A DNA stretch of 20,190 nucleotides from the IMG/VR virus record IMGVR_UViG_3300017739_000163, positions 1 through 20,190 of that record; one strand, written 5' to 3'. Shown in pieces: positions 3,970 through 7,575 of this stretch. Below the pieces are notes generated by a model. It was not told the origin of the DNA. It did not search any database and worked only from the letters and a program-made list of their open reading frames with translations. How positions within the stretch are numbered: position 1 is the stretch's first letter; each line of letters starts with the position of its first letter. The translations under genes were made by a program, and so were the position numbers. This DNA comes from a virus.

Positions 3970-4166
3970 AAGCACTAAAGAGCATGTATAAAGCTCAAAT
4001 TATTTGGGCTGCTTCAGAGCTTAAAAACTATCTTGAGAATCCAGCAGCCGTAGGCGAGCATACAATGCTTGAAACTATGGACGAGCTAGTAGGCAAGATA
4101 GCTGAAGCAGAAGATAAACTAGTTGTATTAGAGACTTCTTTTCTAGAGACTGCGTTTAATGAGTGA
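3951..4166 (+). CDS. Small helical hypothetical protein
   Basis: This encodes 71 residues, overlapping the gene before by 19 bp and the 2OG oxygenase gene after by 8 bp. The second half (METMDELVGKIAEAEDKL) has heptad-like spacing of hydrophobic residues and is likely a short coiled coil. It is acidic overall and has no cysteines. I recognise no family. Its place in the unbroken chain of overlapping genes between nrdA and nrdB is the main support that it is real. Confidence 0.65.
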   Translation: MEDHKIKALKSMYKAQIIWAASELKNYLENPAAVGEHTMLETMDELVGKIAEAEDKLVVLETSFLETAFNE

Positions 4167-4851
4167 AATAAAATATAAAATGCTGCCACTACCTTCTGTG
4201 TTTATGATGGAGGCAGACTTTCCCATAGAGTATGTAGATACTTTAAATACTTTTCTAGATGACCTACTGTTACAAGAGGACAGACTTACTGCTGCTGATA
4301 CTCTTGTAGGACAAATCCAGGCAGGTGAGCAGCTACGCATGGATCATACTCACAAAGACTTACAATACGTTAGAGCGTACCTACAGAACATGGCTGTACA
4401 CTACGTTGGCCAGTTCTTTGAAAACACAGGACAAGCACTAGATGGTGATAGACAAATAGACATAGATGAGTTGTGGTCTGTACACAGCTACGAAGGTGAC
4501 TATAATCCGATCCATGACCACGGCACTAAAACTATAATGGGGATTAGCTGTACAACGTGGACTAAAGTACCAGAACAAATAGAAAAATTAAACGCACCAC
4601 ACATAGGAGATTTTAGCTACTACAACGCTTCAGGGTGTGTTGATGGATTTCTAGAGTTTGTTTATGGTCAAAGTGCAGTTAATGATAAAGAACGACTAAA
4701 GCCTACACAGGCAGTAGTATTTAAACCAGAGATAGGTAAGATATACTTCTTTCCTTCGTGGCTACAACACATGGTATACCCATTCAAAGGCGAAGGAGAG
4801 CGCCGTACTGTAGCTGCAAATTTAAACGCATTCCCAGTGGAGAAACAATGA
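4159..4851 (+). CDS. Putative 2OG-Fe(II) oxygenase
   Basis: This encodes 230 residues. The C-terminal half carries the double-stranded beta-helix signature of 2-oxoglutarate/Fe(II) dioxygenases: NPIHDHG with H119 and H121 as the proximal iron-binding pair (HxH, as in the putative 2OG-Fe(II) oxygenase family common in marine phages), a distal H204 in SWLQHMVYPF, and R215/R216 positioned to hold the 2-oxoglutarate carboxylate. FFPSWLQHMV is typical of the strand before the distal His. The N-terminal 100 residues are helical and not recognised. The substrate is unknown. Cyanophages and pelagiphages often carry such genes, and ties to protein or base hydroxylation and to nitrogen/2OG sensing have been proposed. 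It lies between nrdA and nrdB, and its stop overlaps the nrdB start as ATGA. Confidence 0.82.
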   Translation: MSEIKYKMLPLPSVFMMEADFPIEYVDTLNTFLDDLLLQEDRLTAADTLVGQIQAGEQLRMDHTHKDLQYVRAYLQNMAVHYVGQFFENTGQALDGDRQIDIDELWSVHSYEGDYNPIHDHGTKTIMGISCTTWTKVPEQIEKLNAPHIGDFSYYNASGCVDGFLEFVYGQSAVNDKERLKPTQAVVFKPEIGKIYFFPSWLQHMVYPFKGEGERRTVAANLNAFPVEKQ

Positions 4852-6229: not shown

Positions 6230-6543
6230 TACCATTTTACCTTATGTGACCAATATCGTGCACTGAGTTTAGACGGACTAGCATCTTGTGCATTATGTCT
6301 AGCATAATATGATTTTTTGCGAGCTTTATCTTTTTTAGATGTAGGATTTTTACCAGCACCACGAACACCTTGCTGGCCAAAACGTATTGTTTTTATTTTA
6401 TCACCGTCTTTAGCTACAACAACATGAGATTTGGTAGGATGTTTAGGAGTCCGTTTAGGTTTATTATACCCAGATACTCCAGCCCTGGCTAATCTAGGAT
6501 CTCTTTTTTTAGCTTTACTTCCTTTTTTATATTCTTCTCTCAT
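6229..6543 (-). CDS. Basic conserved marine-phage protein (DUF6321-like)
   Basis: This encodes 104 residues, strongly basic. It begins MREEYKKGSKAKKRDPRL, and the middle reads KHPTKSHVVVAKDGDKIKTI followed by RFGQQGVRGAGKNP, and it ends in SARYWSHKVKW. From memory this matches a conserved uncharacterised family in marine phages and large DNA viruses (I believe DUF6321); the family number is recall and not checked. A basic, glycine-containing RFGQQG loop would suit nucleic-acid binding. The start overlaps the upstream stop as ATGA. Confidence 0.75.
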   Translation of the reverse strand: MREEYKKGSKAKKRDPRLARAGVSGYNKPKRTPKHPTKSHVVVAKDGDKIKTIRFGQQGVRGAGKNPTSKKDKARKKSYYARHNAQDASPSKLSARYWSHKVKW

Positions 6544-6785
6544 TTCTTTCTATAGCTCCTAGTTTTCTTTGCAATCTTTTTAGGCTGCTTACTATGTTGC
6601 TTGCCCTTCTTAGTATCTTCACGTTTCTTTTTAGTAGTAGCAGCATATTCAGAAGACGATAAAGATTTTATAGCTTTTTCAGGCAGGTAACGCTCTCCAG
6701 TTTCACTAGATTTTTTACCAGACTTAGTACGCCATTTTTGTTTTGTCCAAGATCTTAAAGACTTTTGAGATTTTTTAAGTGCCAT
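6540..6785 (-). CDS. Basic conserved phage protein (DUF5872-like)
   Basis: This encodes 81 residues, about a third of them Lys or Arg. Conserved-looking segments are LRSWTKQKWRTKSGK, GERYLPEKAIKSLSSSEYAA and a C-terminal KQPKKIAKKTRSY. From memory the arrangement matches a small uncharacterised family (I believe DUF5872) that in marine phages is often found next to the DUF6321-like gene. A nucleic-acid-binding role is inferred from charge alone. Its ATG overlaps the stop of the 29-aa gene before it (TAATG), and its stop overlaps the next start (ATGA). Confidence 0.75.
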   Translation of the reverse strand: MALKKSQKSLRSWTKQKWRTKSGKKSSETGERYLPEKAIKSLSSSEYAATTKKKREDTKKGKQHSKQPKKIAKKTRSYRKK

Positions 6786-6874
6786 TACTGATCATGTCCT
6801 TTGTCTTGCTGCTGTTTTATCCACTCTTCAAATTCTTTTTTACTTCTTGTTTTTTGTTGGGCTTGTTTTGCCAT
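6785..6874 (-). CDS. 29-residue micro-protein
   Basis: ATG at 6874-6872 opens a 30-codon frame ending in TAA at 6787-6785. The product starts MAKQAQQKTRSKKEFEEW and ends in DKGHDQ. A GGAG ribosome binding site lies at 6882-6879, a good distance from the ATG. Its stop overlaps the start of the next gene (TAATG), as expected for translational coupling. It overlaps the last 35 bp of the gene before. The peptide is helical, charged and glutamine-rich. No family recognised; it could be a translated leader that couples its neighbours rather than a functional protein. Confidence 0.6.
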   Translation of the reverse strand: MAKQAQQKTRSKKEFEEWIKQQQDKGHDQ

Positions 6875-7142
6875 GCTTTCTCCTTATAGCTTCTTTGCCT
6901 TTCTTAGCAATCTCAGCTTGTTTAGATTTGCCAGCTACTTTAGCTCTTTGCTCTAGTACAGTTAGTATTTGTATTTTACGAGCAAAAGGTTTATTTACAT
7001 TTTTTACTTTACGAACAGTATCTCTAGCATCTTGGACAGTAGCAAACTTTATACCGACTGTATCTTTAGGATTTTCGTCTGTATATAAACGTCTGCCACT
7101 GCCCTTTGGCTTTTTACCTGTTCCTTTTTTAGGATCTGCCAT
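6840..7142 (-). CDS. Basic conserved marine-phage protein
   Basis: This encodes 100 residues. The N-terminus MADPKKGTGKKPKGSGRRLY is flexible and basic. A helical middle follows (FATVQDARDTVRKVKNVNKPF, ARKIQILTVLEQRAKVAGK), then a Lys-rich tail (IRRKHGKTSPTKNKK). I recall near-identical N-termini in other marine phages and in environmental genomes, always as uncharacterised proteins. The charge pattern with disordered basic ends resembles small histone-like or DNA-condensing proteins, but no HU or H-NS motif is present. It overlaps the preceding YRG-repeat gene by 14 bp, so it is probably under the same riboswitch. Confidence 0.7.
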   Translation of the reverse strand: MADPKKGTGKKPKGSGRRLYTDENPKDTVGIKFATVQDARDTVRKVKNVNKPFARKIQILTVLEQRAKVAGKSKQAEIAKKGKEAIRRKHGKTSPTKNKK

Positions 7143-7293
7143 CCCACTTTACTCCACGATAAACGCCTTTTTTAGGCTTTGAAGGTTCTTCAGTTTTGTT
7201 TTTATATTTAACACCTCTGTAAGTACCTTCTTCAACTTTAGTTTTTTCTTCTTTTTCAGAACCTACACGCAAACCTCTATAGTAATTATCCAT
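7129..7293 (-). CDS. YRG-repeat small protein (DUF4278-like), riboswitch-controlled
   Basis: This encodes 54 residues from ATG 7293, which has a strong GGAGG six bases upstream; an in-frame ATG at 7326 would lie next to the riboswitch and is rejected. Three copies of one motif are present: YYRGLRVG (about residues 4-11), TYRGVKYKNK (about 24-33) and VYRGVKWDG (about 44-52), separated by charged linkers. The YRGxxY pattern is that of DUF4278, small proteins of cyanobacteria and marine phages. A glutamine-type aptamer lies upstream; Downstream-peptide RNAs are known to precede genes for short peptides of this size. Its biochemical role is unknown; a link to nitrogen status is inferred from the riboswitch. 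Confidence 0.75.
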   Translation of the reverse strand: MDNYYRGLRVGSEKEEKTKVEEGTYRGVKYKNKTEEPSKPKKGVYRGVKWDGRS

Positions 7294-7299
7294 AGTATA

Positions 7300-7304
7300 C
7301 CTCC
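7300..7304 (-). promoter_or_regulatory. GGAGG ribosome binding site of the YRG-repeat gene
   Basis: GGAGG at 7304-7300 lies six bases before the ATG at 7293 and fixes the start. It lies 23 bases after the 3' end of the aptamer, so riboswitch control of translation initiation is feasible, although I find no strong alternative helix that hides it. Confidence 0.75.
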
Positions 7305-7327
7305 AGTTAGTATTGAAATTAATCAAT

Positions 7328-7374
7328 GCGTTCCTTCGGCACTATGCCTACTTCCGTCCCAGTAGGGATGAACG
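7328..7374 (-). ncRNA. Glutamine riboswitch aptamer (Downstream-peptide/glnA type)
   Basis: Read on the minus strand, CGTTC (7374-7370) pairs with GAACG (7333-7329) as P1. TCCC, loop TACT and GGGA form P2. The invariant-looking core GGACGGAAGTAGG follows. GGCA, loop TAG and TGCC form P3, then CCGAAGGAACGC closes P1. The conserved core and closing strand match the glutamine aptamers as I remember them, while stem sequences differ but remain paired. Known members bind L-glutamine and are found in cyanobacteria, cyanophages and marine metagenomes, usually before glnA or short-peptide genes; here the next gene is the YRG-repeat gene. Upstream, AATAAT at 7391-7386 could be a -10 element placing a start near 7379, but no good -35 is seen. 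Confidence 0.88.
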
Positions 7375-7386
7375 TGTTAAGTTAGA

Positions 7387-7575
7387 TTATTTGTAACCGC
7401 CTCCTGCTGCTTTGTATTGTTTAGCAAGCATTTGAGCTTTACGCCCTGACCATTGCCCTGGTTTACCTCCTTTTGAACCTGCTTTAATTTTATTAAACAG
7501 TCGCTTACGCATAGTAGGCTTAGTATAGTTACCAGCCTCGTTTACCCTAGATTTACTTTTTTTCTTAGCAGCCAT
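7387..7575 (-). CDS. Basic conserved marine-phage protein
   Basis: This encodes 62 residues, MAAKKKSKSRVNEAGNYTKP to a C-terminal KAAGGGYK, with RKRLFNKIKAGSKGGKPGQW in the middle. The ATG at 7575 is preceded by GAGGA at a good distance; a longer reading from 7632 overlaps the preceding gene and lacks support. I recall very similar sequences in cyanophages, other marine phages and algal viruses, always uncharacterised. High Lys/Arg/Gly content suggests nucleic-acid binding or a ribosome-like contact. The stop lies 12 bp before the riboswitch, so this gene is outside its control. Confidence 0.75.
   Translation of the reverse strand: MAAKKKSKSRVNEAGNYTKPTMRKRLFNKIKAGSKGGKPGQWSGRKAQMLAKQYKAAGGGYK

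Follow-up and report, generated by a model that had tools for sequence, protein, structure and literature searches.

Earlier work placed glutamine riboswitches in cyanobacteria only, where the pairing of a glutamine aptamer with a DUF4278 gene is known, and the published type-1 and type-2 elements both raise expression on glutamine (PMC6316151). Riboswitches in general have been described as rare in phages (PMC9004378), and phage glutamine riboswitches have already been published for Melnitz, Mosig, and cyanophages (PMC9004378, PMC9602691). The window analysed here is a whole IMG/VR record of 20,190 bases (IMGVR_UViG_3300017739_000163), which is classed as linear and is probably a fragment. 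The glutamine element on its minus strand resembles the Synechocystis gifB leader (type 1, RF01739) in its aptamer sequence, its three-helix fold, the DUF4278 gene behind it, and the ON direction of switching (predicted here), but it differs in lying in a marine phage operon, in having a start codon that the P3 strand is predicted to mask, and in a micro-protein that appears to be of SAR86 rather than cyanobacterial type. The Downstream-peptide or Glutamine-II element (RF01704) likewise precedes short DUF4278 genes, whereas the aptamer in the window gives no match to its model. Among phages, the riboswitch of Methylophilales phage Melnitz (PMC9004378) is also a marine phage element and provides the closest DNA match in an isolate (87.8% over 49 bases), but it was reported within ssrA (tmRNA) rather than before a YRG gene, and in another type of phage. 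T4-like cyanophages (e.g. Syn33) have a reported glutamine riboswitch and a YRG micro-protein, but the latter is distant and the Syn33 region scores below the RF01739 cut-off. The features of the locus are as follows.

7387-7575 (-), small basic protein (phrog_17747, E 3.7e-37), directly upstream of the aptamer; a conserved marine-phage landmark, with DNA matches in isolates
7325-7376 (-), type-1 glutamine riboswitch aptamer (RF01739)
7374-7370/7333-7329 (-), aptamer helix P1
7368-7365/7360-7357 (-), aptamer helix P2
7348-7346/7340-7338 (-), aptamer helix P3
7291-7346 (-), predicted expression platform
7312-7327 (-), linker hairpin (ATTGA 7327-7323 / TCAAT 7316-7312) between the aptamer and the ribosome binding site, from the predicted fold and aligned window-type leaders
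7300-7304 (-), Shine-Dalgarno sequence GGAGG
7129-7293 (-), 54-aa YRG micro-protein (DUF4278, PF14105) with three YRG repeats
6840-7142 (-), basic protein of 100 aa; its gene begins within the YRG ORF and overlaps the end of that ORF by 14 bases (the same overlap in related locus L002 and matching coordinates in L003)
4159-4851 (+), 2OG-Fe(II) oxygenase (PF13759, 57 bits), outside the cassette

The RF01739 (type-1 glutamine, glnA) covariance model of Rfam matched positions 7376-7325 of the minus strand in a cmscan search with a score of 60.9 bits (E 1.7e-11), compared with a gathering cut-off of 35 bits. The alignment is full-length, i.e. positions 1-53 of 53, and contains zero non-standard pairs, which bears out the glutamine aptamer core and three helices that a sequence-only reading of the window had proposed. 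The same reading had placed the element in the Downstream-peptide family (type 2); the RF01704 model gave no match in the window even at E 10, and this identity was rejected; of the covariance check on the minus strand, only the glnA half turned out positive. By covariance model, the element is thus a genuine type-1 glutamine aptamer, and glutamine binding is predicted. It starts 11 bases past the stop codon of the small basic protein gene, and the ATG of the YRG ORF (7293-7291) lies 3' of GGAGG (7304-7300), in agreement with the strong ribosome binding site noted earlier.

Eight related loci also match RF01739, with scores of 56-63 bits. In 18 distinct leaders with the layout of the window, 99.5% of the aptamer pair cells are standard, and two-sided changes were found in P2 (UA to CG) and P3 (GC to AU), the paired changes among related phages for which a comparison had been suggested. 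P1 is invariant in this set, partly due to the search pattern, which fixed P1. Conservation of the aptamer exceeds chance. The window-type leaders that show the linker hairpin were collected by that very feature.

In the predicted ligand-free fold of the window leader, CATAG (7346-7342) pairs with CTATG (7295-7291), and GCC (7340-7338) pairs with GGT (7301-7299); the start region bound in this way by the P3 strand reads GGTATACTATG, and the pairing covers the start codon as well as the last bases of the Shine-Dalgarno sequence. The free leader has an MFE of -19.9 with an unpaired value of 0.04 for the AUG, whereas the aptamer-forced fold has an energy of -16.3 and an AUG value of 0.91, i.e. 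forcing the aptamer costs 3.6 kcal/mol. Among 19 window-type leaders, the mean gain in start-codon accessibility upon imposing the aptamer was 0.52, compared with 0.016 (sd 0.05) in controls in which the stretch after the aptamer was shuffled, and none of 100 shuffles reached 0.52. In a swap test, pairing of the P3 strands was stronger with the start region of the same leader than with that of another (p 0.002, a value that is no strict probability because the sequences are related). Column-wise covariation of the OFF helix in the aligned leaders was not above that of shuffles, and in about five of the 19 leaders the accessibility of the start codon changed little or not at all; for these two reasons, the P3/start-codon platform stays a prediction. 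Because aptamer formation frees the start codon and shuffles do not, we predict that the element is a translational ON switch. When glutamine is absent, the P3 strand of the aptamer would pair with the Shine-Dalgarno end and the start codon; bound glutamine would stabilize P1 and P3 and thereby release the start codon, and high glutamine would then turn on translation of the YRG (DUF4278) micro-protein. Other phage YRG leaders (L314, L319, L320, L323, and L340) have different predicted expression platforms, and in L323 and L340 a Shine-Dalgarno-sequestering hairpin directly after P1 appears to be used.

A real aptamer could also serve as an OFF switch, act by transcription termination, or mainly tune the basic gene that overlaps the YRG stop codon, and the predicted nature of the expression platform together with this overlap leaves some room for such alternatives. 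We nevertheless consider them unlikely: the release of the start codon on aptamer formation exceeds that in shuffles and the published relatives are ON switches (PMC6316151); the minus strand around the leader shows no intrinsic terminator; and in three other loci (L017, L028, and L073) the YRG gene is followed by a gene other than the overlapping one.

The ORF behind the ribosome binding site encodes a 54-aa protein with three YRG motifs, as had been described, and the presence of a riboswitch-type aptamer ahead of a YRG micro-protein gene in a phage operon is likewise supported, with the control itself predicted. The protein, which is short and repetitive, passes the DUF4278 cut-off marginally (25.7 versus 25.3 bits), a caution on its homology, shares 76-78% identity with its relatives in L002 and L003, and had no matches in isolated-phage protein searches. 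The AlphaFold model of it, which is of low confidence (pLDDT 60), suggests three beta hairpins, each centred on a YRG motif. As in the glutamine synthetase inactivating factor IF17 (gifB), a DUF4278 region lies behind a glutamine riboswitch; the window protein differs from IF17 in consisting of the DUF4278 part only, since DUF4278 was the sole Pfam domain found and a second, inhibitory domain of the IF17 type is absent from the ORF. The N-terminal (DUF4278) part of IF17 was reported to be dispensable for function, yet to promote protein stability (PMC6316151). Inhibition of glutamine synthetase by the YRG micro-protein can therefore be hypothesized but should not be assumed.

As judged by covariance matches, the type-1 glutamine aptamer is not confined to cyanobacteria and is common in marine proteobacteria. 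Scores above the RF01739 cut-off were obtained in 59 of 151 genomes of the SAR86 order (defined here as the order of the SAR86 genome that holds locus L207), in 95 of 150 genomes of one alphaproteobacterial order, and in five of 289 genomes sampled across Alphaproteobacteria. In contigs of SAR86 and other marine gammaproteobacteria, the aptamer precedes genes for glutamine synthetase (SAR86) and GOGAT (the others), the latter comprising the large subunit, called from a PF00310 match and sequence reading, and a protein like the GOGAT small subunit; in contigs of an alphaproteobacterial order, it precedes ammonium transporter genes. Seven loci (L203, L271, L144, L146, L195, L212, and L159) exemplify aptamers before genes for glutamine synthetase, GOGAT subunits, ammonium transporters, and a Gcw_chp porin-like protein. 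Tandem glutamine aptamers, several of them before micro-protein genes, also occur in bacterial genomes (L207, L177, L168, L238, and L131).

YRG micro-proteins were found in 44 of the 151 SAR86-order genomes, with one further, weak hit in 274 Gammaproteobacteria and a single positive genome among 289 Alphaproteobacteria. The SAR86 YRG genes sit behind glutamine aptamers and are chromosomal, with neighbours that read from sequence as housekeeping genes (gpmA, mutY, era, acpS, adk, and ilvBNC). One alphaproteobacterial genome (G572; L342 and L343) carries a pair of neighbouring YRG micro-protein genes, in whose leader no glutamine aptamer was seen.

An HMM built from five phage YRG proteins scored 47-56 bits against SAR86-order chromosomal YRG proteins, most of which had come from a similarity search that included two gammaproteobacterial sequences; the YRG loci that were entered via the aptamer pattern alone gave 47.8 bits (L207) and 33.7 bits (L177). 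The same HMM gave 20.2 bits at best against cyanobacterial DUF4278 and 13.7 bits against the YRG protein of a T4-like cyanophage (L124). The phage protein is thus closer to the SAR86-order chromosomal proteins than to the cyanobacterial ones, and we infer that the cassette in the phage belongs to the SAR86 type. Other genes were sought as pointers to the host. NrdA is nearest to that of Pelagibacter phages, not SAR86 phages; no tRNA genes were found in five related loci; a conserved phage gene was found in none of the 151 SAR86-order genomes searched, which is uninformative on the host; and, against isolated phages, a 1091-aa ORF had no protein matches and a 2007-aa ORF only weak matches to Pseudomonas phages.

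The arrangement of an aptamer before DUF4278 is the classic cyanobacterial one (PMC6316151), and many loci of this kind were found; T4-like cyanophages carry YRG genes (L124), and the riboswitch has been reported in them (PMC9602691). The window could accordingly be read as a cyanophage with a cyanobacterial gifB/DUF4278-type gene and riboswitch acting on cyanobacterial glutamine synthetase. This origin was rejected on the YRG HMM scores and the affinity of NrdA, and the ORFs of the window showed no photosynthesis gene; we regard it as quite improbable.

The explanation that we favour as a whole, and hold to be reasonably probable, is instead a functional ON riboswitch and YRG cassette of SAR86-type origin acting on host nitrogen. 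It joins an aptamer, a cassette, and a SAR86-order homology that are demonstrated to an ON mechanism that is predicted, while we infer the type of host (SAR86), the way in which the transfer went, and what the protein does. The aptamer and the YRG gene would have been inherited as one cassette, whose most probable source is a marine proteobacterial host of SAR86 type, and the micro-protein would act, gated by glutamine, on host nitrogen physiology in late infection. Since the switch and the protein resemble a pair found on the chromosomes of SAR86, a bacterium abundant in the ocean, it is probable that a portion of the host's nitrogen-sensing circuitry was copied by the phage.

The surroundings of the cassette agree with the earlier description, with an M15 peptidase gene and a membrane-protein-like ORF upstream and small basic protein genes downstream. 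The gene order is the same in the close relatives L002 and L003. The aptamer-YRG slot follows the 62-aa gene in the window and in L002, L003, L018, L042, L088, and L123, follows the 100-aa gene in L017 and a 104-aa gene in L028, and precedes the 62-aa gene in L073. Aptamer and YRG gene together form one unit, which is mobile among the same neighbours and not tied to one operon position. Because the cassette moves relative to other genes, the YRG gene is its conserved target; the broader claim that part of the operon is controlled is uncertain. The overlapping gene (6840-7142) could be translationally coupled to YRG in the window, L002, and L003. The aptamer is absent from comparable regions of the isolated phages HTVC033P, HTVC115P, CRP-345, and MEP401. 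At the DNA level, the phrog_17747 gene matches phages of Pelagibacter, Roseobacter, and Methylophilales, and a further small basic protein, phrog_14910, is encoded at 6540-6785.

The ligand response of the window RNA is so far a prediction, and the element might be a relic that is carried with the gene and has lost glutamine sensing. The full-length RF01739 match with an intact core, the compensatory P2 and P3 changes in relatives, and the continued pairing of aptamer and gene through changes of position make this very improbable. The sequence-only reading had correctly noted a 2OG-dependent oxygenase gene in the opposite operon, but its idea that riboswitch and oxygenase, both present in the window, form one glutamine/2-oxoglutarate circuit is hardly credible and was rejected, as the oxygenase gene lies with those for NrdA and NrdB on the strand opposite to the aptamer and L003 and L017 have the cassette and the reductase genes with no oxygenase match.

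A strict aptamer pattern was found in at least 120 IMG/VR contigs, mostly ahead of micro-protein genes. YRG proteins lie behind the aptamer in about 47 of these contigs and five further micro-protein groups in others; six contigs have no assigned ORF behind the aptamer, four of which end too soon. Micro-proteins of the FCRK/YCRK, ARKEV, LQWLPP, and IGSEQ types occur behind viral glutamine aptamers (L010, L008, L025, L045, and similar loci), and the non-YRG viral examples tested had no match in Pfam. A SAR86 locus adjoining ilvBNC (L239) and three phage loci (L005, L020, and L113) share a family of NPFYP micro-proteins encoded behind glutamine aptamers, with a SAR86-phage similarity of E about 1e-9 to 1e-7 (phmmer, small set).

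In 41 of the 151 SAR86-order genomes, the P3 loop of the glutamine aptamer holds an insert of some 80 nt that is both conserved and structured and that adjoins a YRG gene wherever checked (L277-L284 and L345-L384, upstream of YRG genes). Its core reads GGAAAACCTCTTTC..GAAAGGCTAGCAAGTACC..GGGAACGAGACCGAA. The alignment was fitted to the model and is thereby biased towards the structure; in it, 93.4% of cells are paired and 50 are double-changed, compared with 14.5 expected from shuffles. No Rfam family explains the insert, and its exact-core pattern found nothing in viral contigs. It could be a second sensor inside the glutamine aptamer.

As far as the literature searched shows, three things are new: a phage cassette of SAR86 type, the platform predicted to pair P3 with the start codon, and the wide range of micro-proteins that phages encode behind glutamine aptamers. 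We tentatively propose, as a possibility that we do not yet favour over its contrary, that phages of uncultured marine heterotrophs, SAR86 especially, carry copies of host cassettes consisting of a riboswitch and a lineage-specific micro-protein, such that a nitrogen-status regulon would run both on the chromosome and in infection, with the SAR86 gene under a composite nested switch. One RNA and a reporter would suffice for a direct test of nitrogen-state control of phage micro-proteins, and host-matched cassettes could hint at hosts for phages of uncultured bacteria.
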